In this document: positions 1-63,092 of the stretch, piece by piece
Position numbering within the stretch: the stretch's first letter is position 1
Layout: each line of letters begins with the position of its first letter
NCBI GenBank assembly: GCA_943736015.1
Contig: OX031059.1
Span: 45,767,159 to 45,831,158, forward strand
Reading direction: 5' to 3'
Length of the DNA stretch: 64,000 nucleotides
DNA from: Tridacna crocea
Lineage: Eukaryota > Mollusca > Bivalvia > Cardiida > Cardiidae
Position numbers and translations under genes: made by a program
The notes under the pieces: model-generated
Databases searched by the model: none
What the model was told of the DNA's origin: nothing
What the model saw: only the letters and a program-made list of their open reading frames with translations

Positions 1-174
1 AGACTACAATTTCAAATTTGATAAAGATGGCAGAAAGTTCTCCATATGGGTAGAAAACACTGTGGGAAAAGGAGAAATTGCTCGTTACGAGCAATTTCTC
101 CTTTTCCCACAGTGTTTTCAAAAGACTTGTACTGCAGACACGTAAAAACTAGGGCTTGTTTTGGAAAGGGTTAA
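1..174 (-). mobile_element. TTAA MITE, variant B, cut by the window start
   Basis: Only the end of the long arm, the palindrome and the short arm are present, ending GGAAAGGGTTAA. The palindrome carries the variant core GAGAAATTGCTCGT in both arms, as in the copies at 28440 and 39211. Confidence 0.85.
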
Positions 175-1873: not shown

Positions 1874-4800
1874 GTAATGCTGTAAATATGTTGAAAAACA
1901 AACATTCAAATATCAATCTAATAGCAAGAAAATTATATCATAAAGAAAAATTATATGGACACCCAGATTATGGTTCAGATAAAAGCCTTATAAACATTAA
2001 CCCACTTCCTTGGGATTTCTGTGATGAGGGTGCATCATATAAGAATCTGAAAGTGAACATTCAAATTTCTTTATGATACATTTCTAATGAAATCAAATCC
2101 TTGCAAGAGGCATTAAACCAGATTTCTGTTTTCCACAGACAACAAGGAATACATACAAGGAATTGTCTCTGAAAGGTTAAAAAACATTGTTGGAAAAGGA
2201 GAAGACTCTGAAAGGTTAGAAAACATTGTTTGAAAAGGAGAAGATGCTGGTCACCAGCATTTTCTCCTTTTCCTACAATGCTTTCCAAAGGCTTCTCTTC
2301 CAGGTTCGTTAAAACTCAGCATTGTGTGGTAAAGGGTTAAGTAACATAGAATGTATGTTCTCTAAGATAGACTCAAATATTGCAAATTAATATCAGTTTT
2401 GGCAACAGTTACCACAAAACAAATGGGCTTTGCATTCTGCTTTTTATTACAAAGTTTTTGTCAGTTTTCAATCTTTGTCAGTAGAACATAAGTGTAATAA
2501 GGCCATTAATTCAAGGATTTTTTGTAATTTCTATCAAAATACAAAAGTTTTAATAAATAATGCATTTACATTAAAGGTGGGTATTTAGAATTTTCACATC
2601 ACACCAAATTAAAGAATATATATGTCAATGAAATTTATATGAAAAAACAATACAACTCATCAGTAATTAAGAATCCTAAAATTACAAAAAAAATTTTTTT
2701 TGGTGGTATTCCCAAAAAAGGCTACATAGCCTTTTAAGCTATTTTTAGATTTCCCGCCAAAATCAAAAAAGCATTGTGGGAATGTTAAGTGACTCGCACG
2801 TGACATTACAAACATGTAGTTATTTTTCATAATGTCTAGAACTTTGGACGGTATGTTTGAAGCTTCGTCTGTATATTTTTGATATGTAAATAAGCGAGTT
2901 GCTCATGTAAACATAGACGGTGTTTCCCTTCAGTGTCGACCTGGGCTGTAGTAAATCTGTAATTTATCTAGCTGTCGGATGTTTTTCGACTACTGGGGTT
3001 TAATGAATGAAAATTATAAGGCTTTGGGAGTATTAGGATATTTTTTTTATGTATTTTTGTAAAATTTTCGTCCCAATATCTGAAGGGCCACCTTTAACCC
3101 ATTACCACACAATCCCTACTTTTGACGCCTCTGAGAAAGAAGCCTTTAGAAAACATTGTGGGAAAAGGAGAAAATGCTGGTAACCAGCATTTTCTCCTTT
3201 TCCCACAATGTTTTCTACCCTTCACAAAACAAATTTCAAATTTTCAGTCACTTTTATTTTGTCGTCTGCAATTGCTTTCAATTTGGACCAGTGTAAAATA
3301 TTGTCGTTTGGTAATGGGTTAAGGTACCTTGTTGATCACAGAAAATTTTTTCTCTGATATTTATATTTGGATAAAAAAAAATCAAAATGCAAAGATAATC
3401 TGTCATACATGATTGCTTTGTACTGCATGAAAAGTACAGACAATGTCATACTTCGTGAAAAAGGGGTTTAATGCATCTGCAATAATTATCAACAAATGTC
3501 AGCCTGCGCAGTCCTCACAGGCTGACATAGGTGAAAACTGCTATTTGTAAATTTTTTGTATGTCCAAACATGCGCGGATCCAGATATCTTTCTCAGGGGG
3601 AGTCCCACTGAAAACTCACTCGTCTTATTATATGATACTTTGATTTCTGGATCTCAGAGGATGTAAGCCGTTTACAAGAAAAGTCAGCGTTTCCAGTTCT
3701 AACCATGAGGAGTTCTCCATATTTAGAACTTTTTTTTTTAAATTTATATTTTACATAAATGCTGTGCAATATCAAACCAGTACCATTTCACGAATCTGAT
3801 AACCACATTTTTGCCGAAATTCCAGGGGGTTCCGGACCCCTGGTCCCCCACTCTGGATCCGCCCATGTCCAAAGACCGTTTTATGTGATGCTTTGGAAAC
3901 TATTGGTTGTTTGACAAAACGGATTTTACGGGTCCAAAATCGTGTGATGACTTGATTGGTGTACTTCATCACAGAGATACATGACGCCACACTTTTGCTA
4001 GAGTGCCGCATTTGTAAATACTTTTATTCATAGCTGAGGAATGTTCTATTGTTTCAGCATGTCTCAAAGTCATGTGACATTTTTTGTTGTATCAAAAGAT
4101 CAGTACTAAGTGATGCCTTATGATCATTTGATGTCTGCTCAAATATAATAACCTTTGACACATCCACATAGACTTCCAAAATATTGGAACACTAACCATT
4201 TTCGATAACTTTGCCATTAGCTTAATGTCATTTCAGCAGAACATACATCTACACAATGCATTTAAAATTCCATTTTTTTAGAAAAATATTTCTGATATCT
4301 TTTTCTTAACTCATTACCCTCAAGTTTAAAAACATCCTTGAAAGTTGTGTGGTTTTGGTCATTAACTCTTTACCGAATGGCCAGATTTTAGACTGGTCCA
4401 AATTCAAAGCACCTGCAGACAACAAAATAAATGTAACTCAAAAATTGAAATTTGTTTCTAGCAGGGTAGAAAACATTGTGGGAAAAGGAGAAAATGCTGG
4501 TAACCAGCATTTTCTCCTTTTCCCACAATGTTTTCATAGGGCTTCTTCCTCAGGGTTAATAAAACTTGGGATTGTGTGGTAAAGGGTTAAGCCTTTAACA
4601 AACAGTCCTTAATCTTTTTAGCTTGGAGAAAGGAGACATTATGGGAAAAGGAAAGAAAAAGTACCAGCATTTTTTCCATTGCTCAGATCGTCTTCTGCCC
4701 TTCCAAACACGAATTAAAAGCATTTGTAGGTGACAAATGCAGTGTGGCTCAGACAGAATTTTTTCTCGAAAGAGTATGAAATAGAATTGAAAAAGCAGAA

Positions 4801-5632
4801 AAGGATGGTGACCAGCACATTCTCCTTTTCGTACAATGTTTCCAAAACCATCTTTCTCATGGTGGAAAAGATGCCTGATTATGTGGTATAGGGTCAACAT
4901 ATAATCTGCAATTCTTTCAAATTTGATGAGTCTTAAATTTTGCTGTTTGTTTAGAGTTAAGTATGATGTAAGACTTATTACATAGGTTACGTACGAAAAA
5001 AACACATTGGTAGTCAGAGAAGATAATCATTATGAACTGTTTCTTGATCTGCAGCAATTTTTCTGATGGTAAAGTGTAAAGTATGGTAAAGTGTTAAAGA
5101 TTAAGCTTGGTCAGTACCATACAAGACTTGGGAACAGGAGGTCTCTGTCTTGATCCCAGTTGTGGCTGATTTCTTTTCGAGGATTGATGATAGTCATTGC
5201 GATAGATTTCATTCCTCTCTTACTGCTGACCATTGTTTCCACAATAGTTATGTAGAAAAGCAGCCAATGGCTTGGAAAGAATATTGTGACAAATACTGTT
5301 AACCCATTACCACACAATCCCTACTTTTGACGCCCCTGAGAAAGAAGCCTTTTGAAAACACTGTGGAAAAAGGAGAAAATGCTGGTAACCAGCATTTTCT
5401 CCTTTTCCCACAGTGTTTTCTACCCTTTCCAGAACAAATTTCAATTTTTCAGTCACCTTTATTTAGTCGTCTGCAAATGCTTTCAATTTGGACCAGTCCA
5501 AAATTTTCTCGTGTGGTAATGAGTTAAAGGAAACTCCAGGAAAGCATGGGTAGGTATACTGGCTACCACATTTTAACTTGAATAATGTTGAAAACAGCAT
5601 TAAACACCATAAATCAATCAATCAATCAATCG

Positions 5633-5663
<31 letters not shown>

Positions 5664-11600: not shown

Positions 11601-14600
11601 AGCGATCCAGGGCCATTTTGGCCCTCTTGTTTTCAATAGTTATGAAAATCAGTTTGAATGTTTTTGTTGATGATGAATAAATTGAGATTGAAAATGGGTC
11701 ATATTGGGAAAAAACTAGGTCAGGTAAAATCTTGAGAAACTTTGTGTGCACTTGAGAGGCTACCTTTTTTGTCCATGAAAGGTGGTCAGAATCTCTGGTA
11801 ATTTCTGTAAATCGGAAAATGGGCAATGTTGGGCTTAAAGTGGGTCACAAAGACAAAATCTAGAAAAGCTTGTATAAACATTATAGGCCAAAATTTCATT
11901 CCAATACTTATGAAAGTTTGATAGAATGTTTATCATTATATCTCAGAAGAGATGTATTGTCAAAAGGTGTAGCTGAGCAGCTTTAGGCCATCATGGCCCT
12001 CTGATTTCTGTATTGGTTTGAATGACTTCTGTAGTCAATGATTTTGAGGTCACATGATGCTGTGGGAATCCAAAAATAAAAAATCAGGTAGCTGTAAATT
12101 TAGAATTTTTGTTGACTTTTCTACAGAAGTATAGTGTAGAGCATCTTGCTCTTCAGAGGTATTGGGCCCAGTCTCAATGCTGAACTAGATCAGCCTTTGT
12201 AGATATCTAAATCATAATACAAGATCAGGTTATAGGTTAAAAAGAAGTACCAGTAATTATTCTGAGTTAATAACAGAAGAATACTCTTATATAGAAGTTG
12301 TAGGTTGTTGTTTTACAACAGGTACAGATTGAATGGTAAAAAAATTGCATTAATCTTTGGAAAAAGGAGCAGATGCTTTTTGCAAGCAACAATCTGCTTC
12401 TTTTTTCACAATGATCTCCAGCTTAGCAAATATTTTGTGGGGCCTTTTTGTTTGAAACTCAGATTGTCTAAGTAATTCAAGTACTTCATGTGGATAACCA
12501 TTATGAGTCTGTCAATCGTTTTAAGAGTCAAACATAATCACCACCAGTAGTTGATATGTATAAATGATGAGTTTACAAAGTTTAATAGGCTAAATACTGA
12601 TGACAATAGAGAAGAACTTGAAAGATGTTTCCTTCCTTAATTTGTCCCTTTTACTTAATCTATAATAAATATATATATTCCTCATTAAAATTAGATGTAC
12701 ATGACTGCATATATATTTATAATTTTACTAAATTGAAAACTAATGCATTCAATAATCATATCTGATGTATGATATATAGATGTAGAGAAAGATTTATCAT
12801 AGAAGTGGAAAAATGGTTAGTTTCTTCTTTTTCTGCCAAAGTTTGAAAAGTCATCTATGTAGATGCTCAAAATACGCCAACATGAAGGAAAGATTTATGA
12901 CCAGTACAATGGATATAAAGTACTTAAAATCGTGATGTGGTTTTCCTTCAATAGATGATTGAATACAATTGTTCAGTATTGCAGATGCACCTTTGAGCTG
13001 CCTATAAAACTTCCTACATATTCTTGATTATGTTATACTTGGCACGTAAGCCATACTCTTCATCAAATTGCTGATTCTATACCACAATTTAGACTTGTCA
13101 AAGTTCAGAACATTAATTTTGCAACTGAGCAATTCGATAGGTGAATGCAACACTATTCTAAGTGCCTATACAATGTACAGGCACTTAGAATAGTGTTGCG
13201 CTCACCTATTGAATTGTTGTAGCTGAATTGGTGAGTTTTGTCTCCTACTGGGTAGGAAGCATTGGAGTATAGAGAGTAAGTGGAGGTTACCAGTAATTTT
13301 TTTAACCTCAATGTTTCCAAAAATCTTTTTCCTCAGGATTTGATACACAGGATTGTTTTGAAAAGCTTTAAGAAACTTGAGCACTCGTTTTGGAAATATG
13401 TCACAGTTTATTGTCAAAACATCATCACCAAAGCAATGAAAGTGAAATTACCTGTACTTCATTTTAATATCATTAACATGAAATGCATTTTTTGTTTAAG
13501 GTGATGCTGATGTCTTTTTGCTGAATCTTTACCACATGACAAGAATGTAGACTTGACCAAATTGAAATCAATTGCAGACAAGCAAAGAAATATAGTTCAA
13601 ATGATAATTTCTGTCTTTTATTGGATACCAGCATTTGCTCCTTTTCCCACAATGTTTTCCAAAAGCATCTCTTTCAGGGTCATAAGAACTGGTGATAGTG
13701 TGGTAAAAGGGTTGAAAGAAAGTTATTTTTGTTGACCAAAGGCAATGACCTGGCCAAGTAAGGCAAGTAGGGATAAAGTACAAAGTTTGAAAACAGTTTA
13801 AAATACAAAATCCAGTCCCTATCAAATTGTGCTACGCAGTAGCAAAGTTCAATGGCAGGATGAAATAATTAGTGTCATAGTGAGAATCAATATTGATTGA
13901 TTGTATTGTATGATATTTAATGCCATTTTCAACATTATTTCAGTTATATCACAGCCAGTGCACCTATCCATGATTTACTTGATTTTCTTTTGTCAGTACT
14001 CCGCACCTTTTTCATTCCAAGCCACTTGCAGCTTTCCCACATAACCATCATCCAAACAATAGTCAGTGGTTATAGAGAAATTAATCCTGTCGCAATGGGT
14101 ATCATCAATCTTAGGAAAGAAATTGGCCAAGCCAGGTATCAAACCCTCCTGTTCGCACAATCTTTTCTACCCTTCACAAAACAAATTTCAAATTTTCGGT
14201 CACTTTTATTTTGTTGTCTGCAAATGCTTTTGCTTTGGACAAACCTAAAATTTTGTCGTTAGGGAAAGGGTTCAGGGTGTAATACAGACTGCTGTCACAA
14301 GCACTGTCTATAATTGTTTTTTACCAGAGTTTTCAAGAGAAGCCTTCTGATTATGACCCTAGAAATTCGGAATATCCAAGTAGATGTATATTGAAATATA
14401 CATGTTTGAAAATTCAGAACAGACAGGGAAGTGATATAACATAGATTTAGACTTTTTTCTGTTTGCCTTCAGAATGGTAGCTTCATTCTTATTTTTCAGA
14501 TATACATGGCGGCTGTCTGGCAGACTGGAAAGCTTGGTGTTGCTTACTATGATGTTGACACAACTTGTATTTATGCCATGTTAGATAAACAAGAAAATGA

Positions 14601-17600: not shown

Positions 17601-19569
17601 CTATATGACCTATATTGAACTTTGCCCTATAACACATGAATATTTGATCATTAAAGATAGGTAATTCAGTAAGATTAACTAGCAGCTTTTTTGGTAAGTC
17701 TGCCAGAGTTCTCTACCTTCTTTACAAAATTTGCGTAATGATTTCTCTCAATCTTTTTTACAGAAAAGCATTTTCGTCCTACCTTTTATTTTTTTAATCC
17801 TTTAACAATGATACCATTTTTAACCCTTTACCAGACAACAAAATTTTAGCCTTGTCTATACTGAAAGCATTTGCAGATGACAAATTACACATGACTCAAA
17901 AATTAAAATTTCTCTTGGGAAGGGTAGAAAACATTGTGGGAAAAGGAGAAAATGCTGGTTACCAGCATTTTCTTCTTTTTCTACAATGTTTTCAAAAGCC
18001 TTCCCTTTCAGGGTGGTTAAAAGTTGGGATTGTGTGGTAAAGGGTTAAACAACTTTTAGGTACTTGTATGAAAGCAGTGTTGGGAAAGTCCAATCATTTT
18101 CCCCTTTTCCCACAAAGCTTTCTATCCTGTTGACTAAGGACAATTATTATTGTTTGAAAAACAATTAGTTTATTGTTTGCAAATACTTTTGATAAACCAA
18201 GTATAAAATATTATGGTACAGTAAAGAATGAATAACTTTTATGTGGATAAAGAAATTGTATGGAGGGTTCAGATTGAACCTTTACCTTTTGTAGATGATA
18301 GAACAGAAAATTTGACCCTCTGTCTCCTGACTCTATGAGGCTTTTCTTGATGATATCTCAGATGAGTATGAAAGTGGGTCACATCAGATCAAAAACTAAG
18401 TCACTAGATCAAATATTTGAAAAGCCTTGTGGACACTCAACAGGCCACATATTAATTAAGTCCATGACTAATTGAAGTTTATCACAATGCACTAGTATGT
18501 CATTATATTTCGGAAGAGTTTAGAAATGATTCATGTATGGTCAAAAGATTCAGGTGAACGATTTCAGGGCCATTATGGCCGTCTTGTTTGATAATTGATA
18601 GATATTCATGTAATTTTGAATAATTACAAATCATTTTAGATGTGGAAGTGTGCAAGAGAAGAGTCATATCTATGGACCTAGCCTCTGTACCAAGTCATTA
18701 CACAGACAATGAGAGAATTTTGCATATGTCATCAATTGTACCATTTGGAAATTTTTGTATGGTATGTTTGTTTTGGATTGTGTGTTTTTTTTTTTTGTTT
18801 TCAAATGTTCTTCCGTTCGTGTGTATGAATGTAAGTCTTATGGTTCCTGCTTCATTTTATTTCTTGTTTTCTTGAGCCATTACCAGAGGCTCTAAAGCCA
18901 TATTGGGAAAATAACAAACAATTACATATTACTAATAGAAGCTTCATTCCAGTGTCCTTTCCCACGCTATTTGCCTGTTCAAAATTAATCTTTTTATGTT
19001 TTGCTTGTATTCTTTGCTCTTGTCTTAACTCATTACCAAACAACAAAATTTTAGGTTTGTCCAAATCAAAAGGGTCTGCTGTGGACAAAATAAAAGTACC
19101 TGAAAATCTCAAATTTGTTTTGTGAAGGGTAGAAAACATTGTGGGAAAAGGAGAAAATGCTGGTTACCAGCATTTTCTCCTTTTCCCACAATGTTTTCCA
19201 AAGGCTTCTTTTTCAGGATCGTCAAAAGTAGGGATTGTGTGGTAATGGGTTAATCTTATTGCTCCTTTTGTTTATTCTGGTATTGTAATCTGCCCAACCT
19301 TGGTAACTCAATCGGAAGTGTACAAAACTTGAGGATAGGAGGTCACTGGTTCAATCCCCAGCTCAGCCAATTTCTTTCTGAGGATTGGTGATGGTCATTG
19401 AAACAGGATTCATTTCTCTCTCACTGCTGACCATTGTATTGATGGTAGTTATGTGGGAAAGCAGCCAATAACTTTGAAAGAATATTGTGCGGAGTACTGC
19501 TGAGAGAAATCCCAGGAAACTATGGATAGGTGCACTGGCCGCCATGATATAATTGAAATGACCATGCAG

Positions 19570-19600
<31 letters not shown>

Positions 19601-22600
19601 ATCAATCAATCAATGGTTATGTAATCTATATTCAGTTTGAGTGCATCATGATCCAGGAATAACATCTCTGGAAAGTTCAAAATTGGCCACCTTAGATCAA
19701 ACTAATGGTGATTAGAAAAATACATATTCCTATTTTATGTTTTTTTCAAGGTGAGGGCTCTTGGGGGTCTCCTGAAATTCCTGGAACAGACAAGAATTGG
19801 TATTGAGTTAGAGGAGGCTGGTACCAAACTTCCAGTTCTAGATGTTAAAATATTTACCCTGTAAGTGTATAAGTACATATTATTGTTATACTTCAAAGAA
19901 ACTTCTGGCAATCTGATTTGATAATATGATATGTGCCAAATAAATACTGTTGTACAATTGCAAGCTCCATGGAATAGCAGTTTTATAGCCAGTGGGAGGG
20001 GAGGGGCTCCATAGACTGTAGACTTAAATGCAAAATACAAGAGGGCGTCGTCAATAGGCACAAGTTGCACACAAGACAAATACACCATTATCAATGCTAG
20101 TTCACTTCATGGTTATCATTAAAGTGGAAAGAATGTACCATTTTTGGAAATGAATGAATATGGATAAATATATAATTGTTTGTTGTCATTCTAAAACAAG
20201 TACACACGATTGAAATGAGCCATAGCTTCGTTAAGTATAAAAACTATGAAGTTCAAATATCATACATTGGTACATTAAAAAAATAAACTTATGGTTGTTT
20301 GAAGCACTATTGGTTGTTCACATTTGCCAAAAAATTATAAAATGAAAAGTTGCATACCTTAAAGTTGTTGAAATCAATGTTCAAATGAAAATAAGCGAAA
20401 CGTGGATCGCAGTGACTTCATGCACCAAACTGCAGGTCTGACACAGTTTGCAGTTTTCATCAATGTCAAATGTCAGTCAGTTTGGGTACTTAGAAGAGAG
20501 ATTCAATTTCATCCTTTATTTGTGAGACCATAAAACAGAAATTTCACATGAATACGTGTTTAAATAGAAACACTTTGCAGTATAATAAATTTCTGTTGTC
20601 CCGTCAAGTGACAGGGCACTTGGAAACTTGTTATACACCCCACAATGAAGTGGGGGGGAGTTATACTGGAATCGCCATGGCTATCTGTCTGTCCCCTGTG
20701 TGTCCACCTGTCTGTCGGTAGACTCAAATTTGTCTGGAGCAATACTCCAACAGTTTTTCACATACTGAACTCAAATTTACACACTGTTTTTATATAAATG
20801 AAGTTCTGCATGTGCACTTTTCATGACCCTGCTGTGATGTCTTGCAGAATTATCTCCCCTTGAACTGTTACTTTTCTACTAAACCATTCTGCATTTTTTG
20901 ACAAAGACCTGTTTTTATGACAAGTAGCTGGGGGGGGGGGAATAATCACCTTTAGTGATAGCTCTAGTTAAATGCTGGTTAATGATGTGGCCATCTTGCC
21001 TGGAGGGACACTAATATAGTGTGTTCCATTTGTATAGGACTTAAATATATTTTGCAGTAATGTGACTGTTACACTTAAAATGTTTTATTTTTGCAGTTTT
21101 TACCGTTTCACTTTCTCCCTTTTCCCACAAAATTTACTACCTTTTCATACACAAGGTTACTCATTTGACATTACATTTGTCTTCTACTTTCAATATTGGG
21201 ACAAATTTTAACCCTTAAAGTGTTTTTTTTTTGCCAGAATATGTAACAAAATAGGGGACATTGTAGATCCAAGATCAGATTGCACAGAATGTGCAGTCTG
21301 ATCTTGATCTACACTGTCCACAAAATCAACTTAAGTTTGTTCCAGCCCTTTAGGGGCTAAGTTATGTTGTGTTATAAAGAGCTTAGGCACCTTATTTTTC
21401 AGGGAAGAACAAATGATCCTTGATGACACTGCATACAGGTAAAGACTGTCTGTTTATTACATGCCTTCTTTTGTAGTTAATGCTCATTTATATGTCTATG
21501 TCTGTATAGATAGGGATCTAGTTATTATTTTGTTTAACCCATTACCAAACGACAGTATTTTAGACTGGTCCAAATTAAAAGCATTTGCAGACAACAAAAT
21601 AAAAGTGACTGAAAATTTGAAATTTGTTTTTTGAAGGGTAGAAAACATTGTGGGAAAAGGAGGAAAAGGAGAAAATGCTGGTTACCAGCATTTTCTCCTT
21701 TTCCCACAATGTTTTCTAAAGGCTACTTTCTCAGGGGCGTCAAAAGTAGGGATTGTGTGGTAATGGGTTAAATGAGTATTTTGAGAAAAATCATTACTGG
21801 TAATACATGTGAATGACAAGCACAAAGGAGAAAATGCTTGTTACCAGCGTTTTTTCCTTTTCCCGAAATGTTTTCTAAAGGCATCTTTCTCAGGGTCGTC
21901 AAAAGTAGGGATTGTGTGGTAATGGGTTAACTCTACAGTCAAAGTGTTAGAAATTTAATATTTTCATTCAGGAGCTTTTAAAGTACAGATGTCAATTGAT
22001 TACATAGGGGAAGCTTAGAAAGAAAGGGCAAACATCTATTTTTGAATATTTCAGTGCTTTACAGATATTCCACAAAGAATATCATCCATCTGTATATAAG
22101 ACTGGGACAAGTGATAGTGGGAAAGAGGGACTTAGTCTTTTTGGTGAGACTTGCATAGCTTATGTGATTTTCTCTCAGCTCAGTTATATTTGATGTTTGG
22201 ATGTTCTGTGAAGTGATGTCTTTGAAGTACCGGTATTTTCGCAGAAGGTTGATTTTTTATGTCTTGTTGTAGGCCAATTTTGAAAAGATAGTTGAAAAAG
22301 AGATCATCAAAGTAGCACTTATTCCTTTACCACACAATCCTGACTTTTAACAACCCTAAGGAAGAAGCTTTTTGAAAACATTGTGGGAAAAGAAGAAAAA
22401 ACAGGTAAACAGCATTTTCTCCTTTGCCCAAAATATTTTCTTCCCTTCCATAAATAGATTTCAAAATTTTACTCACATTTATTTTGTTGTCTGCAGATGC
22501 TCTCAATTTGGACCAGTTTAAAATTTTGATGTTTGGTAAAGAGTTAAACATATTTCTCAAAATTAATGCTCCCTCTAGAACAGTAGTGTCCCCCTCCTCC

Positions 22601-37600: not shown

Positions 37601-40600
37601 AGAATGATATGGAGTGCAACACGCGAAAAGGGTCATTCGGACATTTGCGTAAAGTGTCACCTGTGATCAGCGTGTGCACTCCGCGCAGGCTAATCCGTAA
37701 CGACACTTTCCGATTTTATGTGATTTTCTGTTTTACGCAACTCTACTGTAACACAAAATCTAATGTAGTCGTAAAGTGCCGTCTCGGATTAGCATGCGTG
37801 GACTGCGCAGGCTAATCCGAGACGACACTTTACGCAAATGTCCGAATGCACCTTTTCGCGTGTTGCACTCCATATGTAGTTCCATAAAATAAAAAGATAA
37901 TATAGGTTAAAGAACTGGCTGAAAACGAGTAAAGATGTATCCTAAAATCAGCAGGTTGATGGTTCTTTACAACGAATAATGATAGTCATTGTATCAGGAT
38001 TAATTCCTGTTTTACTTCTGATCATTATTTTGATGATGGTTATGTAGAAAAGCAGTGCTCATTGACTTGGAAATAATATTGTGCAAAGCACTAGTAAAAG
38101 AAACTGCAGGAAAGCAGCATTGACTTGGAAATAATATTATGCAAAGTACTGGAAAAGGTTATGTGGGAAAGCAGCATTGACTTGGAAATAATGTTATGCA
38201 AAGCACTGATAAAGGTTATGTGGGAAAGCAGCATTGACTTGGAAAAAATATTGTGCAAAGCACTGGTAAAGGTTATGTGGGAAAGCAGCATTGACTTGGA
38301 AATAATATTGTGCAAAGCACTGGTAAAAGTTATGTGGGAAAGCAGCATTGACTTGGAAATAATATTGTGCAAAGCACTGGTAAAGGTTATGTGGGAAAGG
38401 ACCATTGACTTGGAAATAATATTGTGCAATGCACTGGTAAAAGTTATGTGGGAAAGCAGCATTGACTTGGAAATAATATTGTGCAAAGCACTGGTAAAGG
38501 TTATGTGGGAAAGGACCATTGACTTGGAAATAATATTGTGCAAAGCACTGGTAAAGGTAATGTGGGAAAGGACCATTGACTTGGAAATAATATTGTGCAA
38601 AGCACTGGTAAAAGTTATGTGGGAAAGCAGCATTGACTTGGAAATGATATTGTGCAAAGCACTGGTAAAGGTTATGCAGGAAAGGACCATTGACTTGGAA
38701 ATAATATTGTGCAATGCACTGGTAAAAGAAACTAACTGTACCAGCTGATGCAGTGTAACTGAAATAACCCTTTACCAAATGATAAAATTTTAGACTTTTC
38801 CGAATTGAAAGCATTTTGAGACTATAAATAAGGTATAATTCAAAATATGAAAGCTGCCTGTCAAAAAGCTGCCTGTAGAAAACATTTTGGGAAAAGGAGA
38901 AAATGCTAGTGACCAGTAAAGGCCCTCTTCCTCAGGTTTGTTAAAAGTCAGAATTATGTGGTAAAGGGATAACCTAACATTAACTGACCACTATTTTTTA
39001 TTGCACTTTTAACACAGCTTCTGTTTTGAAATCATTGAAAGAAGGAAGCAAAGTGGTGGCAGAATATTTAGTGAAAGACCAAAATATCACATACCCAGGA
39101 GTTATTATGGCTTGATTTTTCATGAAGTATTAAAGGGTTGGTCTGAAATCAGACTATTAGTCTCAAATCACCTGATCTTGTTGTTAAGTTTTTACTGCAT
39201 CACCTAATGTTTAACCCTTTCCCAAACAACAGATTTTAGACTCTTCCAAACTCAAAGAGTTTGCAGACGACAATTTCAGATTTGATAAAAATGGAAGAAA
39301 GTTCTCCAAATGGGTAGAAAACACTGTGGGAAAAGGAGAAATTGCTCGTTATGAGCAATTTCTCCTTTTCCCACAGTGTTTTCAAAAGACTTGTACTGCA
39401 GACATGTAAAAATAAGGGCTTGTTTGGGAAAGGGTTAACCCAGCATACCAAAAGGGATGTAAAAAGAGATTGGCAGTTTCCTCTGATTTCGAAAAAAAAT
39501 TGAAGTTAAAAGAACAAATTTCTGAAGTTGTCAACAATATTTTAAAAGAGCTTTTGTGTTGGTGGGAAAAATTTACTAGAAGGTTGAGCCACCCGTTATT
39601 CAACAAATTAATTTAGTGCTTAAACTTTGACCCTACTTTGAATAGTACAATTCCTGGGGTGTTTCTTGTAAAATTTTGCAGAGTAGCCAGTTCATATTTT
39701 ACTTAACCCTTTCCTACACAATACCAACTTAAGACGACCTTGAGAAACCGGACTTTTAAAAACATTGTGGGAAAAGGAGTATCAGCATTTTCTCCTTTTC
39801 CCACAAAGTCTTCTACCTATTTTCTACATCTTCCACATTAGCAACATGGAACTGTGTGTCTACATATGCTTTGGATTTGGATGGGTCTAAAATTTTAACA
39901 TGTGGAAAAGGGCTTACTAAAAATCTTAACCCTTTTTTCATTAAGCCTATCCGTTTTTGTTTTGTTACTGATGCTCTCAGATTGTATTGATTGGTGATTA
40001 ACTCTGTACCTCACTTCAAAATTTCAGATTTGAACTTAACCATAAGGTTCAAATGATGATATTTGTATTTGAAATGGTTACATGGGAAAGGAAGACGATG
40101 TGGGCTACCAAGTTTCTTCCTGGTCCAGTAATATTTTAAAACAGTATTTTTCCCCGCAGTTTTTTAAAACATGGGATTGTGAACATGACACATTATTCAA
40201 AATACACTCCACTATTGCTGAAAGCTTTATAAATATATTTGAATGAGCAATTGATAGCAGGACAGCTATTTGCAATTATCCTTTGCTTCTGTTTAAAAGT
40301 TTGTTCTTTGTTACACACTCCTTTATGTACTTGAATAGGTTACTTTTTTCCAATCTTTACAATTGAGACCATCTTTGACCAGACCACAAAATATTGTATA
40401 AGCAATTTGGGGGAGAAAAAAAAAATGAAGGAACAGAAAAGAAAATAGGTTTTTTTTAATAAGACAGAGATTAGTTACAAGATTTTAAGTCTGACTTTTG
40501 ATCCTCAACCTTTTGTTATAATTTTCTCCAGTTTCCTGGCTGATATGCTTTCTTTTGAATTAATGACAAAAGCTGTACAGGGTGCTTGATAGAAAGGTTT

Positions 40601-43600
40601 AATTTTACATTTTCAGAACTTGGTTCCAGAGGCCACTGAAGTCTTTCTCAGTAATTAAAAGTCGTCATGATGCTGTGGACTTTTTCTCCAACCCAAGGAA
40701 CTTTGAGTTGTTCAGCACCTTGCAAGATGCATTAAAACATACGAAGAACATTACGGTAAATGATTTGTAGTTTTAATTACTTTATTTGAATACTCTTCAC
40801 CTCGTTTTGCTTTGTGATTCTTTAGCTCAGCTATTTTGGTAGAAAAAAATGGAGGTATCATTATAATTGCTGTCATACAAAAACTTTGACATCTCACAAT
40901 GTCATTACTGAAGGTATTTACTTTAAACTTAGACTAGTTGTTAATTATCAAAAGGGGATACATGTACAACAAGGGCATGTAACCATTCAGTTTTTATTAC
41001 ACAGTTGATAACTTTTTGACTGAAAACATCAACTAGAATATATTTTTTTCTCAAAGCAACTGCAGCCAAGGGTAGGCACTAGTATGCTGTACTCTTGTTA
41101 TGAGCATGGGGTGTGTTTGGTTGGTGTTTAGTGCCATTTTTGGCATCATTTCAGTTATACTGTGGTGGCCTTTGCTGCATCTATCTACGCTTTCCTGCAG
41201 TTTCATTTATTGATACTTTCTACAATATTACTCCCAAGCCACTTGCTGCTTTTCTTTGTAACCATTGTCAAAACAGTCATCAGTTGTGAGAGAAGAATGA
41301 AGCTGTTGCAATGACAGACCACCAGTAATTCTTTGAAAAAAATTGATTATGATGAACACAGACTTTGTTCTGTATTACTTGTAATGGAAAAATCTCAGAA
41401 TTTGTTGATCAATTATGAGGATCAATTATGAGAAGCAAGTAAATGTTTTTTTTACCCAAAAAAAACCATCACTTTGCGTAAGTAAGTGTGTTGGTCGCAT
41501 ACTTGGTTAGCCTTAAAATAGTGTTTTATTATAACCCTTTCGCAAACAGCAAAATTTTGGACTAGACCAAATTGAAAATGTTTGCAGACTACAGATCAAG
41601 TGTAATGTAAATGATGATTTTTGTCTATGAAAGAGTAGAAAACCCTGTGGGAAAAGGAGAAAATGCTGGTTACCAGGATTTTCTCCTTTTCCTACAGTAT
41701 TTTCAAAAGCATTCTTTCCAAGCATCATTAAAATCAGGGATTGTTTGGGAAAGGTTTAGCCAAAAATTAATGTTAAGATATGAAAGCTAGATTTGATATA
41801 TTTACAGAGAGTTCTTTCCAGAATGAAACAGTCACATATATCTGTTGGTGATTGGCAGGCTCTGTACAAGGTAAACCAAGGGTTGCATTTATTAATGGAT
41901 TTATTATTCTAATTCTGAAAACTATGTGAAGCAGTCTTACTGGCTTAGGCAGAATGTTGTTCCCTAAATTAGAGATGAATACAGCTCAGGGTCCATATTC
42001 ACTGACCATTCTTAATTACATTTTTTGTCAAATTCTCAAGAATTGTCTAAATGTATGAAAATTTATGATTGACTAAATCATAAACCAAAGGGTTTAGCTA
42101 ATCAGAAATTGTGCTACTGTCTTAATCCAAAATAAGATTAAGAATGTTGTTTTGTGAAAGCATGCACAGGCTTTTGTAGATTATTCACTCTAGCAAAGTA
42201 GGGTTGCCACTTTCTTTCTCAGGATACAGGTTTACTTCTCTCACTACCAAAGGGGAACAACTGCAGTGAAGACTTTCTTGTAACTTTGTATTGTTTTGAG
42301 AATCAAAGGGCCAAACAGTGGACATCAGAAATCTAAAATCTGATTGCTCTGATCTGTTTTAAAATTAGTTACACATTTTTGCAAAATGTTTAAGTTTATA
42401 TGTTGCCCCCAACCATAAAAGGGTTACAACCATAACTGATGAAGTAAATGTATGCTTTCGTTTAAACCAAACGGATATATGTTCAAAAGCTTTGCTTTTG
42501 GTGAATACATCTGAAACCTAAACGATTGCTGTCTGAAGGTGTAGAAAAACTCTAAATCTTGACTTTGTTCATCAGGGAAATTAGAACATGTAACCTCCCT
42601 AGCACTAATAAAAGTTTCTTCTTTTTCTGTCATATGTCAAAACTGGATTAAATACTCAATCTGATATACCAGGCTTACAGAGCAGGTTCTGTAGAGGAAG
42701 GAGATTGCTTAGAACCTGCAAGCTTGTCTGTGATCTATGCTATCAGATATTTTATGAAACAGATTAAAATTTCTATGAAATTGGAACTACAGAGCTTTTG
42801 AGCTAAAAGAATCTGATACCAAAGCTAGTAAACCTTACCAAGACATCTAAATATTTATATGGCTTGCAAGATGTGAAAAGGGGCATTTGGACATTTTTGT
42901 AAATTGTCTTCTCGGATTAGCCTACACAGTCTGCGCAGGCTAATCTAAGACAACACTTTACAACTGTGCTACAGTGGACTTGGGCAAAACAGAAAAATTA
43001 CATAAATACAAAGAGTGTTGTTTCTGATTAGCCTGTGAGGACTGCGTAGGCTGATCTGACACAACACTTTACGCAAATCTCTGAATGCCTCTTTTTGCTG
43101 TTGCAAGCCATATGGCATTGTAGATGCCATAATGGCATTGTAGAAGCTTTCTACCATATATGGTTTTCAGCATAATTATCTTCTATGTATGATTTTCTTC
43201 TTCAGACAGTCTATAGTGCAACTTGCATTAAAGAAATCTGTTATATGCAGCCACAATCGATTCAAATTTTCAAAAAGGTAACTTTATTTTTATATATTAT
43301 AGCTCTGGCATCTTCTGTGCATTGTTTGTGTCTTGCAAGAATTTTGACTTTTTCAAAAACTGACATTTTATAAAATTACTGATATTCAGGAGATATTTAT
43401 TTCAAACTTAAACTAGTTGTCAAACATCAGGAGGAAACTCATACAATAAGGGCAGTCAACCATCTAAGTATTTCTGACAAAGCTATGACCCTTTTTTTTT
43501 TACTTAAAATTTTACCGGAAATCAAGCATCCATCGGGGGTTTTACCTGTTCAGCTTGAAGTTGGAAATATAACCCTTTACTCCGTAGATACTCATTTCTA

Positions 43601-46600
43601 CGCATTGCTTGTAGGAGCCTTTGGAAAACATTGTGGCAAAAGGTGAAATTGCTTGTCATGAGCAATTTCACCTTTTGCCACAATGTTTTCTATGCTATCA
43701 AAAGGTGTCATATACACATAAGAAACGGCTTCATCCTTGCTGTCACTTAGGGTCAATGAAAGCTACAACAGAAATGCCTTATGAGTACATTGCACTGTAT
43801 GATTCAGTGAGATAAAATGGATTCTGTGAATCCATAATTATGATGATGCCATGCTTGTAATAATGCAATACTCCTCCCCCCCCCCCTCCCCCCCCCTCCT
43901 TTTTTTTTTCCCCAGAGTGCTGCTCAAGTATGCGCCAATGGAATGTTGTAGTGCTTTACTTAATTATGTCTCCCTTGGACAGGATTATGAGACATTTTTT
44001 TTCCCTATGCGTCAGTCTGTCTGTCACAAATCATTTCTGCTCTGTAACTCCAAAACTTCTAAGATGTTTTGATAAAATTAACACATTTTAAAAGCACCCT
44101 GAGAGGAAGTGTCATGCACAACAACCATACCTCAGGCTTGAATATTTATTGAGTTGTTTCCCTTTGATTAGTTTCCATACTCATTTTACATAGAACTCCC
44201 TGTCTGCTCTATAACCCGAAAAGCTTTACAGAAAAATGACCATTATTTCAGTCAGAAACTGCCTTGGTGATATATCAGTCCTTCCTACACCAAAAAGGGG
44301 GAGACATCGTTTTTTTTTTTGTAGGAAAATAAGTTCTAGTGATTCATTGTCTATCATCCTGACTAAGAAGATGGGTGAGAATATTGTGGGAAGGTGAGAA
44401 AGTGCACTCTCTCTTTTGCTCTTTTAACCCTTTACCAAACAATCCTGGAAGATAAGGCTTTTGAAAACATTGTGGGGAAAAGAAAAATGCTGATAACAAA
44501 CACTTTCTCCTTGTCCCATAATGCTTTCTACTCTATCAGAGAGCTAAAGCTTACTTATTCCAATTTTGAGAATGTAGTCCACAGATGTTTTGAATTTGAA
44601 AGACTGTAAATTTCCTTGTTTGGGAAAGGGTTAAGTAAAAATCTAATCACATGAGTCATTTTATTTGTCCTCTACAAATTCTTTTTCTTTGGATTCTGGA
44701 ATGGTTTTGTAAGATAAAGAGTTAATTAATCTCATTAAGTGTTATTGTATGACAGGTTGTGGAAAAGTTCACTGATGATCTAAAAAGGGTCACAAATCTG
44801 ATTGATATGATAGTGAGTATTGTTTATCTGATTCTTATATCTTTTCATCCTCACTAGAAGGAAGAACTTTTGACTGAATGGAAAGCATTTCTGGACAACT
44901 TATCAAGTGTGGCTTAAATGATCTGTATTGTCTTTTGTAGAACAGAAAATGCTGTGGAAGAAGGAGAAAATCGATATTAACTCATTACCACACAATCCCT
45001 ACTTTTGAGAAAGAAGCCTTTAGAAAACGTTGTGGGAAAAGGAGAAAATGCTGGTAACCAGCATTTTCTCCTTTTCCCACAATGTTTTCTACCCCTCACA
45101 AAACAAATTTCAAATTTTCAGTCACTTTTATTTTATCGTCTGCAAACGCTTTCAACTTGGACCAATCTAAAATATTGTTGTTTGGTAATGAGTTAATTTG
45201 ACCACGGCAAAAGCAATTGGAGGAGTAAATTTAGTATGGCACAAGTGATGGTACATGCCTGTCTTTAAAATGGTAGGAAACATTGTGGGAAAGAGGGAAG
45301 AAAAGCTGGTTATCAGTATTTTCTTTTCTCATATTTTCAAAACTTCCATTCTAAGTGGTTGTTAAAACAAGGGATTGTTTTGCAAAAAGTTGCATTGTTT
45401 AGCATTCAGTTGGATTGGATAGAAATACATCAGAGCTAGAAATTCAGTGTATGGATGTTTTGCTCTTATTGTCACTGTTGTTGCGCAGGATGAACGTTTA
45501 TCATATTGCTAGAAAAAAAATGAGTACAGAGTTACCCCATGTGTTGTTGTAACCATGTGCCTGTTATTTCAAAGAAAGATTTTAAATGGGCACCTGCACA
45601 TGATTTGTCATTATGTAACTAAAAAAAAAATTAAAAAAGAATTTTTGTCAATTGTAAGTCTATAATTCATGAAGTATTTCATTTCAGTTACACAACATTT
45701 GCTTTTTTCCTTCCTTTTGGCTCTTTATAGTCTGTTCCTGTTTCCATGATTACCCAAATACCGTTACTCTATTTGAAGGAATTTTTTCCCTTTTGCCACA
45801 GTGTTTTCAGAAGAAATCTTTTGCTTGTGAGCAAAAGCTACCAATTATTGATATATTTTGTATGTTTATTTTTTATCTACACTATTATCCCTTTACCACA
45901 CACTGCACACAGTCCCAAGTGTTACTGACCCTTTTGCAAAATCTTTTTGAAAACATTGTAGTAAAAGAAGAAAATGGTAGTAACTTTTTTATCTGCTTTT
46001 CCCACGTTGTTTTTTGTCCTATCAAAGATGAATTCCATCATTTTAACCATAATTGCCTGCAAATGGTTTCAACTTTGATAAGCTTGATAAGTATATCTTT
46101 CTATTGTGTGGTAAAGAGTTAACAAGTGAGTGTGATGTAATATTTTTATTTTCATTGTAGGTTGATATTCCTGAGTCGGCACAACAGGGACGTTTTGTTG
46201 TGAAACCTCATGTTGATGAAAATCTGGACAAATGTAACTTTCAATTTTTAGCTCCACTGGCCAAAGGCCAGCGGGCTTATGTCATGGCCCAGTGTCCATC
46301 ATGCATACGTGTGTGCGTGCGTGTGTCCGCGCGTGTGTCATTTTTTATTTCAAACATCTTCTTCTCTGAAACTACCCTTCCAATTTTGATGAAACTTCAC
46401 AGAAATGAACCTGTGATGGTCCTCTTCAGAATTCCTAGAAAGAATTTTATTCCTTCAAAAACTCTGGTTGTCATGGCAACAAAAGTGAAAAATATTGAAG
46501 ATTTTTAAAAATCTTCTTCTCTGAAACCATAGGGCCTAGGGCTACCAAATTTGGCATGCAGCTTTATCTAGTAGACCTCTACCAAGTTCCTTCAAATAAT

Positions 46601-49600: not shown

Positions 49601-52600
49601 CATAGGTGGATAGATCTCATCAACGGGGAGTGCAGTGCACAGGAATCATAACTCTTGCTCGCTTTATTTTTGTTTTTCATACTTGAATTTTGTCCAGTGC
49701 ATGCCCCAGCTTTACAACTTGGGGTAAGACGGGCGTATCTTGCGACAATTTGCCGCTCTTGTTCAATGTTCTTTTGATAACAGGTTGGATACTTGCTAGC
49801 CATACCAGAAGCTGCATTGACCAACATATCAGACAGAAATGAAGGTTATCATAAAGAGGGACTTGAATTTGTGGTAAGTGTGATTTATTTAACACGTTAC
49901 TTGCAGATATGACTTTGAAAATCTTCCAAAATATGCTTTTTAACTCTTTCATAGATAACAAAACTTCTGACTTGTTTAACCCTTTACCACACAATCCCAA
50001 GTTTTAACATCCCTGAGGAAGAAGCCTTTTGAAAACATTGTGGGAAAAGGAGAAAATGCTGGTAACCAGCATTTTCTCCTTTTCCCATAATGGTTTCTTT
50101 CCAATGAAAGACAAATTCCATCATTTGAGGCACATTTGTATTGTCGTCTGCAAATGTTTTCAGTTTGGACAAGTTTAAGATTTTGTCGTGTGGTAAAGTG
50201 TTAAATTAAAGAAAACAAATTTGATGTGGCTGAAATAATGGGATTTGTTTTTGAAAGGCGAGGACAAATTGGTTACCTGCATTTTCTCGTTTTTCCAGAA
50301 TGTTTTGAAGTCCTTCTTGTTTTATTTGTTAAAACCGCGATTTTTGTGGACAGTTATAAAAGGATTATTTAACATAACTAAAGGTTGAACTTAGGCAAAA
50401 AACACCAGAATAAAGAGAGAATTGCCTTATTCAGACAATATTTTCATTTGTTCTATTGTTTTGTGATGAATCTCTGTCAAGCTATGATAGGGCTGAAAGC
50501 ATTATGGGAAGTGGAGAAAATGGTAGTTATTAGCATATTCTCTTTTCTTATTATGTTCCCATAAGCCTCCTATGTGATGGTCTTTAAAGGTCAGGATTGT
50601 TTGGTATAGAGTCAAGTTAAGTGTTATAATTATGATTATCATGCTAGTACAAATAGTAGTTCTCTACAGTAAAAGAAGTTTTAAAAATTTGTTTGGAATA
50701 GGATAGGGCCTTTTAACATGCAGTTATGTCTTCATAGTCCAATATCATCTGTGCAAGGATGTAAAAAGATAAACAATGTATAGTTATGTATTTCTTCTGA
50801 GCGATTCAATATATTTCAGTTTAGCTCCAATTTTGTACTGCACTATAGAAGTGAAGGAACAAGAGGTATTGAACAAACTTTAACAGTTCAAGTTTGCTGT
50901 TACATGAAATCCAGCATTGCTGCAATGCAGTCTAGGCGTGTTCATCCAGTAGGAAACAGCCTTTGAAACTGTTGTATAAATAGAGCTACTGCTCTTAATA
51001 CACAATAGTTCCTTTTCCAGGATTCTTTTGATATCATTTAAAAAAAAGAGAAACCTTTTTTCATCCTTTTGTGCTTCAACTGTGTCATGGTTATCAGAGT
51101 TTGACATGTCTAAAATGGTATACTCAGCATCAATAAAAAAGTCACCAGTTAGTCAATCAAAGTTTACTCTGGACTGATGAAAGGGCATAATTCCTCAAAT
51201 AGCTTTATGTTTTCCAGCATGCTGTTACAGTTTCAATGTGAATCACAAAGGCATAGAGACATTCTCATGTCAAAAAAATTAAATTGGTAAATGACATAAT
51301 TGAAAATTTCTCTCTTGAGTCAAGGTGAAAATTATTCAACTTTATTACCTGGTAACTTTTCATTGACACTGAGTATATTTGTGGTAATAGATATATGCAT
51401 GGATCAAGCTAGAGAATGTCAAAAAGAAAGAAATAGAGGATATTTGGTTTTTTTTACAGTAAAAATTTGAAATTATTTCATCAAGTGAACATCATTGTTT
51501 TTATTTTCACAAGTAGCTCAGCCACGAGTGAAAATATTACTCATGATGTTCACAAAATGAAATAAATTTTGATAATTCACAAAAAAACCCAAATATTCTA
51601 TTTATTTCATACTTTTAACCCTTTCATGGATGAACTTAATCAAAATCCAGTGCAGTTCTTTTCGTGTATTCCTAGAGGCATAACCCCTCCGCATTGCAAC
51701 CCATTATGAAATTAAGTCAAGCGCGAGAAATGTAAGGTAAATTATATTTCCATCTGATTGCAATAAGTACTCTGGAACAACTGTTTCTATCTTCAACTGA
51801 AGAGTTAGAATATAAAAATTGGTATTTTCACTGGAGGCATAGCCCGTCCGCATTGCAACTCATTACAAAATTATGTCAAGTGCAAGAAATGTAAGGTAAA
51901 TTATATTTCCATCTGGTAGTAATAAGTAGGCTGGAACAACTGTTTCTATCTTCTGCTGAAAAGTTACAATATGAAAATTGGCATTTTCACTGGAGGCATA
52001 GCCCCTTCGCATTGCAACTCATTACAAAATTATGTCAAGTGCAAGAAATGTAAGGTAAATTATATTTCCATCTGGTAGTAATAAGTGGGCTGGAACAACT
52101 GTTTCTATCTTTAACTGAAAAGTTAGAATATGAAAATTGGTATTTTCACTGTTTGTAACCATGATATATCGAAAAAATATTTCACTGATATTTCTAGAAA
52201 ATCCTACCGGAAAGCATATGAAATACTTAATGGATATTTTAAGTTGTGGAAAATGCTTGTTGGAATACAAGATTGCTGTAGTCAAAATGTTTCACAAAGT
52301 ATCAGACAACGTGTACTGATGATCAGAGTCAACATTCTATGCAGTCTGATCTTGGGTCTCAACACTCAATTTGCCTATACTGTTTAACTGTTTACCACAC
52401 AATCCCGACTTTTAACGACCCTGAGATAGAAGTCTTTTGAAAACATTGCGGGAAAAGGAGAAAATGTTGGTAACCAGGATTTTCTCCTTTTCCCACAATG
52501 TTTGCTACCTTGCTGGAAACAAATTTCAATTTTTGAGTTGCATATAATTTGTCGTCTGCAAGTGCTTTCAATTTGGACCAGTGTACAATTTTGTCGTTTG

Positions 52601-63092: not shown

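Follow-up and report, generated by a model that had tools for sequence, protein, structure and literature searches.

It has long been asked why some MITEs come to be present in very many copies, and the locus studied here raises the question in a particular form: what does a long palindrome do in the middle of a short element that recurs throughout 64 kb of a clam genome? The window, that is, the whole 64-kb stretch of DNA that was analysed, comprises positions 45767159-45831158 of contig C4 in a genome of 1,048,827,098 bp and 31 contigs. We favour, with a probability of about 0.6 for the whole explanation, the reading that the element is a non-autonomous MITE of the piggyBac superfamily, moved in trans by resident elements of 6.4-7.2 kb, and that its palindrome probably matters while the element is mobile.

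With an HMM built from full copies (E<=1e-3), we detected 71 non-overlapping matches to the element in the window, including 36 full-length copies and 59 that cover the core. The matches span positions 1 to 63970 and occupy 12,631 bp, or 19.7% of the window. The number 71 is slightly high, as at least one pair of matches (29252-29340 and 29340-29426) represents one copy that has suffered a deletion; read in this way, it bears out an earlier note on this DNA, which had claimed more than 50 copies or remnants. The same HMM has no match on the reversed window and none in each of five dinucleotide shuffles, and the motif TTAACCC occurs 44 times in the window compared to 9.6 expected occurrences. 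The element is 229 bp long with both TTAA included, where about 228 bp had been proposed. Being non-coding and short, with many copies of equal length (36 full-length ones in the window), it qualifies as a MITE. The extent first given for the finding and the parts of the type copy are as follows.

3094..62625, no strand: extent of the finding as originally given
3094..3322, plus strand: type copy of subfamily B, full length, with a perfect 71-bp palindrome; 40 scored genome places at 96-100% identity, itself included
3094..3113, plus strand: TTAA and left terminal repeat CCCATTACCACACAAT; 17-nt inverted repeat with 3306-3322, 94% complementary
3114..3146, plus strand: left spacer; its first 18 bp (3114-3131) lie within the 38-bp stretch compared with autonomous left ends
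3147..3217, no strand: palindromic core, 35-base arms around one base
3222..3254, plus strand: right spacer; of all blocks, this one differs most between lineages (193/314 = 0.615)
3255..3318, plus strand: right end including the right terminal repeat; 13-nt direct repeats at 3256-3268 and 3298-3310

The terminal inverted repeats are short (17 nt including TTAA, 94% complementary) and start with CC(C/T), as expected for piggyBac. The left end reads TTAA-CCC and the right end GGG-TTAA or, about equally often, GAG-TTAA; the ends TTAA-CCC...GGG-TTAA reported earlier are thus correct on the left and hold for part of the copies on the right. The type copy has CCC at both ends, and copies such as those at 5299 and 19025 combine CCC on the left with CTC on the right. 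Among 32 copies, the terminal pair 6-224 is CG in 14, CA in 13, TA in three, TG in one and CT in one. Pair 5-225 is CG in 25 of 27 copies, and the right end is often CTC. Like the core, the terminal repeats covary, with TA in 24 copies, AT in seven and mixed bases in four at pair 8-222. Of the 51 left ends in the window, 32 have TTAA near the expected place, as do 28 of the 45 right ends; young copies outside the window have it at both ends in 34 of 39 cases.

TTAA is the target of the element and is duplicated on insertion. The earlier note had proposed to look at empty sites for a target other than TTAA. One copy (L077 844-1070) lies within a piggyBac element of another family, and a single TTAA is present in 8/9 uninterrupted relatives that are 95-98% identical. 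For a second copy (L046), the seven empty places, 80-89% identical, read TTAA in five cases (5/7) and TTCA in one, with a deletion in the last. These results were drawn from the L077 and L046 rows among the matches listed, selected for long non-MITE flank alignments at >=80%; most other flanks contain MITE copies. The wider empty-site test started from 124 insertions, of which 77 were bounded by TTAA on both sides and had flanks that could be used. Within the window, one full copy is inserted into an unrelated repeat, and four empty relatives of this site (69-77% identical) are gap-free at the junction once one TTAA is kept.

5299..5527, plus strand: full copy inside unrelated repeat
13892..14142, minus strand: uninterrupted relative of the repeat holding 5299-5527; site reads ACAA
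19370..19614, plus strand: uninterrupted relative of the same repeat; site reads CTGA
41122..41315, minus strand: uninterrupted relative of the same repeat; site reads ATAA
53021..53249, minus strand: uninterrupted relative of the same repeat; site reads CTAA
36250..36640, no strand: two opposite-orientation copies with a common TTAA; 134-base inverted repeat, 80% complementary
29252..29426, minus strand: single copy without model positions 88-133, right arm included

The copy pairs 4362/4587 and 36250/36481 each have one TTAA in common, which is expected if TTAA-bounded copies themselves offer targets. Neighbouring matches lie at most 12 bp apart 13 times, where random placement averages 1.2 (at most 6 in 2,000), with at least one of the 13 cases being one split copy.

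The assignment to piggyBac made in the earlier note is supported by these empty sites and by longer elements with matching ends that encode a piggyBac transposase (PF13843). The genome has 118 matches to PF13843, and the best 30 of 118 were taken as loci (L-numbers), most of them without an internal stop. Element ends were resolved for some of these 30 loci and not for others (e.g. L055, L056, L058 and L084), and a better-matching partner than the two described here, L086 and L092, may exist. L086 (204-7406, contig C5) is a 7.2-kb element with an open reading frame of 492 aa (PF13843, E 2.7e-88), and the solved structural relatives of the partner transposase are piggyBat and piggyBac. Copies of L086 on C3, C9, C10 and C15 are 99.6-99.96% identical; those on C18 (about 98%) and C17 (about 95-97%) have diverged further. 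TTAA adjoins both ends in four of its seven copies; in two others TTAA is absent from one side, and the last was traced short of its right end. L092 (1155-7530) is a 6.4-kb element with an open reading frame of 508 aa, whose protein is 79.7% identical to that of L086; its left end carries repeated units of about 35 bp.

When the first 38 bp are compared, the left end of L092 matches MITE subfamily A at 34/38 positions and that of L086 matches subfamily B at 31/38. Autonomous piggyBac elements with a matching left end, for which the earlier note had suggested looking, are thus present. As a control, twelve other piggyBac ends, taken from six loci, agree with the 38 bp of the MITE at 12-21 positions, and several piggyBac families in the genome have ends unrelated to the MITE. 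The right ends of L086 and L092 agree with the MITE at 12-14 of the first 14 bp, compared to 7-11 for other families; between the MITE and the autonomous right ends, no match was found beyond the terminal repeat. L086 furthermore has CCC on the left and CTC on the right, like the MITE copies 5299 and 19025. Judged from this similarity of the ends, the transposases of L086 and L092 probably mobilise the MITE. Within L086 and L092, the palindrome is found only where the sequence matches the MITE model, and MITE ends can be recognised in several of these stretches; the two elements thus do not need it to move themselves. A 22-nt inverted repeat of L092 (1807-1853) is unrelated to it. Kolobok elements use TTAA as well, which would make them another candidate superfamily; however, their termini are 5'-RR and YY-3' (PMC9587614), compared to CCC and GGG/GAG here, and the partners encode PF13843 piggyBac transposases. 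An origin from Kolobok is thus scarcely credible.

The earlier note had described the copies in the window as a burst. Ten 3-kb stretches on ten contigs, hand-picked at round-number positions (30 kb in all), contain 36 matches over 5,806 bp, or 19.4%, with three of the ten having none. Bootstrapping this 30-kb sample results in a coverage of 9.7-29.3% and 1.2 matches per kb (0.63-1.73). As the average density elsewhere equals that of the window (19.4% vs 19.7%), the element is not a local burst, and we dropped this idea. The copies also belong to several lineages of different ages: the flanks of the tabulated full-length copies diverge from the consensus by 0.11-0.36, those of fragments by as much as 0.54. 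Were the whole genome as densely populated as the 30-kb sample, the broad family would extrapolate to about 100-300 Mb of the 1.05-Gb genome and to about 0.7-1.8 million matches, which corresponds in order of magnitude to a million copies or fragments. At such a density, the cores would be a large natural experiment on the decay of palindromes of about 70 bp. The copies in the window that inform the following comparisons, besides the type copy, are listed here.

1..174, minus strand: lineage C copy truncated by the window edge; perfect 33-base arms at 53-119; vs 3094, core 6/67 and flank 33/76 sites differ
39211..39438, minus strand: lineage C full copy with the three compensated pairs of 1-174 and one single change
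28440..28664, minus strand: older lineage C copy with five compensated pairs and five single changes
4362..4590, minus strand: full copy, perfect 33-base arms (4469-4535); vs 19025, core 0/65 and flank 30/110 sites differ
19025..19253, minus strand: full copy, perfect 33-base arms (19132-19198)
21534..21771, minus strand: full copy of subfamily B
44977..45196, plus strand: full copy of subfamily B, one arm mismatch
49976..50204, plus strand: full copy of subfamily A
62397..62625, minus strand: full copy of subfamily B
43569..43756, plus strand: divergent-lineage copy with decayed ends, extent approximate; flank 56/88 sites differ from 3094

Arms of about 35 bases around a single base, as first described, are present at 3147-3217, and several copies have perfect arms of 33 bases (53-119, 4469-4535 and 19132-19198); in many other copies the arms reach up to 33. 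Four copies had been named as perfect: this is correct for 3094 and 19025, whereas one mismatch is present in 44977 and a single mispair close to the centre in 39211. As DNA, the core of copy 3094 folds into a hairpin with a 3-base loop (-39.1 kcal/mol), which contradicts the description as loop-free. A chance palindrome was rejected: 0/200 shuffles fold as well, and no HMM match occurs in shuffles. Position 55 is A, which extends the arms, in 9 of 51 copies; many subfamily B copies owe their longer palindrome (35 instead of 33) to this change from T to A, in which the partner base is unchanged. The centre base is A in 41, T in six, G in two and C in two of 51 copies, and A in 38 and T in one of 39 young copies; inversion of the core is not established by these counts. 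Pattern scans of viral contigs gave no true match (seven matches cover one arm only and are chance-like), and a pattern scan of genome contigs gave no match.

The fold might also act as RNA, with small RNAs regulating the family and selection maintaining the RNA stem. The inner 221 nt of copy 3094 fold at -85.4 kcal/mol (z -12.2). The human MITE Made1, unlike the clam element, derives from mariner and has TA as its target. This short MITE gave rise to the mir-548 microRNA genes, and MITE-derived microRNAs exist elsewhere (PMC1784062). However, no match to Rfam was found at gathering thresholds, and a source of small RNAs would be expected to harm the element rather than help it. We therefore consider selection on an RNA stem quite unlikely.

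Compensated changes occur in well-preserved copies of divergent lineages, as a comparison of their arms shows. In copy 1-174, six arm changes relative to the consensus form three complementary pairs; the positional chance that six random places form three pairs is 5e-5, before complementary bases are required. The copy at 43569 has 30-base perfect arms around 7 bases, with three compensated transversion pairs and one or two single changes near the centre, and two of its three pairs are absent from lineage C. In the L067 copy, whose left end is similar to that of 43569, five pairs and one mismatched pair occur without any single change. Among 33 copies with an HMM score >=100, a matching partner is present in 35 of 71 carriers of variants seen at least three times (8 of the 35 concern position 55, which pairs with an unchanged base), compared to 7 of 47 for doubletons and 2 of 52 for singletons. 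For all 51 window copies, the corresponding values are 81/302 for frequent variants, 9/79 for doubletons and 7/54 for singletons. These 51 copies contain 42 complementary double changes and a further 25 that are non-complementary, where independence would predict 39.3 of any kind; the compensated total is thus near independence because old copies have decayed. A signal of compensation emerges once frequent variants are set apart from singletons, and in the well-preserved members of divergent lineages. A filter of at most three mismatched pairs (48 of 122 copies) favours compensation by construction, and the argument thus rests on single lineages.

After insertion, the arms decay uncorrected, one side at a time. 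In the 39 young copies, the most similar to 3094 in our search, all 35 arm changes are single-sided and none is compensated, with 16 of 39 palindromes still perfect; correction of the arms after insertion was rejected on these grounds. Private divergence in these copies amounts to 1.28% for the arms, compared to 2.4-2.8% for the spacers and 1.6% for the left end. The arm divergence is somewhat low even after insertion.

Between source lineages, the core is conserved far beyond the spacers, as follows from the alignment of copies. With CpG positions masked, core and flank of 23 young full copies have about equal numbers of singletons per site (0.68 vs 0.74), whereas variants in at least three copies are about fivefold rarer in the core (0.092 vs 0.482 per site; Fisher p=3e-4). 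This is a contrast similar to that of McDonald and Kreitman, under the assumption that singletons mostly arose after insertion and widespread variants are mostly changes of the source lineage. Other sets of copies result in p=0.006 (score >=200), p=0.001 (the 26 of lowest flank divergence) and p=0.069 (the 20 lowest). For all 36 full copies p=3e-10, but singletons are here unequal (1.0 in core vs 0.58 in flank per site).

The same pattern is observed in direct comparisons to 3094. In eight copies of other lineages, 36-64% of flank sites differ but 9-23% of core sites; these are the other-lineage members of 13 hand-chosen copies. Besides 1-174, the differences in core and flank are 7/67 and 44/115 (39211), 15/66 and 49/115 (28440), 6/67 and 42/116 (41532), 10/67 and 56/88 (43569), 9/66 and 48/99 (44424), 5/56 and 50/112 (39703), and 11/66 and 46/94 (31066). 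Pooling the ten pairs of five representatives, also hand-picked, results in a divergence of 94/622 = 0.151 for the core, 28/160 = 0.175 for the left end, 0.475 for the left spacer, 0.615 for the right spacer and 0.324 for the right end. The core is thus clearly better kept than the spacers, whereas its margin over the left end is small (0.151 vs 0.175). The earlier statement that many copies keep the palindrome perfect has to be divided accordingly: inserted copies are not protected and their arms decay, whereas the core of the source lineages is preserved.

Instead of being selected, the core might be homogenised while the flanks drift, if palindromes that break or stall replication are restored from other copies, by gene conversion or exchange between lineages. 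Palindromes are recombinogenic (PMC7999016), and the left edge of the low-diversity region is gradual (diversity 0.155, 0.188 and 0.281 in successive outward 9-bp windows). The best argument for exchange or recurrence is the C-G pair 63-115, which is scattered over different backgrounds: it is carried by lineage C, by 41532 and by 5299/7052, and the flanks of 5299/7052 are close to 3094, which is without the pair. However, the right edge is abrupt, with diversity changing from 0.119 to 0.393 between adjacent 9-bp windows, where ragged tract ends would be expected from conversion. Furthermore, singletons in young resident cores are nearly as frequent as in flanks, and with 0/35 single-arm changes compensated in the 39 young copies, recopying of residents is not seen. 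Homogenisation is thus an unlikely explanation of the conserved core.

Symmetry might also be a by-product of template switching, if the arms of source copies were corrected during the replication or repair that accompanies transposition, without selection. The change at position 55 that lengthens the palindrome in many subfamily B copies fits this process. Template switching would explain the symmetry, but not why the core sequence changes slowly beside the turnover of the spacers, and the young resident copies show no correction. As an account of the core, we regard it as improbable.

Constraint in sources combined with decay in residents points to something that acts when the element is a source and not when it is resident. 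We infer that the core may be a cis-acting DNA module that raises the chance of a copy being mobilised or amplified. This could happen by two routes. The dyad might bind a dimeric protein, either a transposase dimer or a host factor, by analogy with the end palindromes of piggyBac and piggyBat; alternatively, a hairpin might be extruded in the course of mobilisation or replication. A copy whose core is broken would have few descendants, and successful sources would therefore keep both sequence and symmetry. It is possible, if doubtful, that the palindrome is an independent amplification module, in which a hairpin would be used by the transposase or by replication during mobility and would be retained, with its symmetry, across many source lineages whose left ends match differing autonomous partners. 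If this were true, the spread of piggyBac MITEs would need more than ends and a borrowed transposase, and such a module could explain how the family came to occupy nearly 20% of the clam sequence that was sampled.

Related features have been described in other systems. The piggyBac and piggyBat elements use a TTAA target, excise seamlessly and have asymmetric ends, and their subterminal palindromes (19 bp in piggyBac) are bound by dimerised C-terminal domains (PMC7351741, PMC11707139). These palindromes, as described there, are imperfect, about 14-19 bp long and located in the ends, whereas the clam MITE has one of 67-71 bp near its middle. In the bivalve Lucina pectinata, the promoters and introns of haemoglobin genes contain a MITE-like 'consensus sequence 1' of 210 bp with 30-bp terminal inverted repeats and a central self-complementary region of 77 bp (96% identity) (PMC4732748). 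By its description, this repeat resembles the clam MITE in host group, size and palindromic centre. However, its authors could not identify a target duplication, and the accessible text of that report gives no superfamily or autonomous partner (PMC4732748). The CMITE families of Acropora have a TTAA target, CCC ends and tandem arrays, and one family has a piggyBac-like partner (PMC2872659). An internal region of 75 bases is better conserved between these families than their terminal repeats, with its origin given as unknown (PMC2872659); in the clam MITE, the margin of the core over the left end is small, as noted above. Unlike the clam MITE, CMITEs are about 100 bp long, with about 1,600 copies estimated in A. 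millepora, and a palindromic internal region is not reported in the accessible text (PMC2872659). PiggyBac elements were found in all mollusc genomes analysed by one study, which left the many MITEs unclassified (PMC10294476). In the literature searched, which comprised sources other than subscription journals, Repbase and Dfam, no paper on this family or on a palindrome-cored piggyBac MITE was found beyond those on the Lucina repeat and CMITEs. Within that literature, what is new is the combination of a palindromic core, compensated changes, constraint at the level of sources and likely autonomous partners in one genome. As likely partners with open transposase frames and a constrained MITE module are found together in one genome, the role of the internal sequence is directly testable.

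Lastly, a Pfam scan of ten open reading frames in the window found nothing relevant to transposition. One open reading frame in the window (32407-33426, minus strand) identifies the DNA as that of a bivalve by its matches to bivalve proteins, with 58% identity in Mactra antiquata, 54% in Mya arenaria and 93% in an unnamed record.

In four copies of the MITE (5299-5527, 7052-7287, 41532-41758 and 39211-39438), we found an identical compensated C-G pair at model positions 63 and 115, which face each other in the palindrome arms, on backgrounds that otherwise differ among these copies. This combination may reflect either an exchange of cores or a recurrent change. Furthermore, the HMM search yielded four hits that end or are interrupted within the palindrome:

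14146-14272
21824-21930
29252-29426
47373-47478

These look as if deletion or breakage had occurred inside the palindrome; the pattern might also be due to chance.

Among the piggyBac families of the genome, the 7.2-kb autonomous element (L085-L091) contains several MITE-like stretches at positions that are constant among its copies; these stretches move along with the element. A separate family of ~2,765 bp, with ends CCCTTTATATAC, is found at L060-L065 and L069 and, among the best 30 of 118 PF13843 matches, includes several stop-free copies on different chromosomes.

The window also contains the following features:

13130-13216, 30664-30846 and 37607-37875, inverted repeats that appear dissimilar to the MITE family
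32407-33426, minus strand, frame of 339 aa
38060-38726, minisatellite (57-bp unit, 11.7 copies)
7776-8682, 10274-11490 and 60665-62042, 166-bp tandem repeat arrays 1, 2 and 3

TTAA-CCC ends were not seen in the stretches read at the three inverted repeats. The 339-aa frame is conserved in other clams, and its similarity to beta-propellers is weak (under the Pfam cut-off). Both strands of the minisatellite carry open frames of >210 codons. The three tandem arrays have one repeat unit in common, and their sites are the stretches of the window with the fewest MITE hits.
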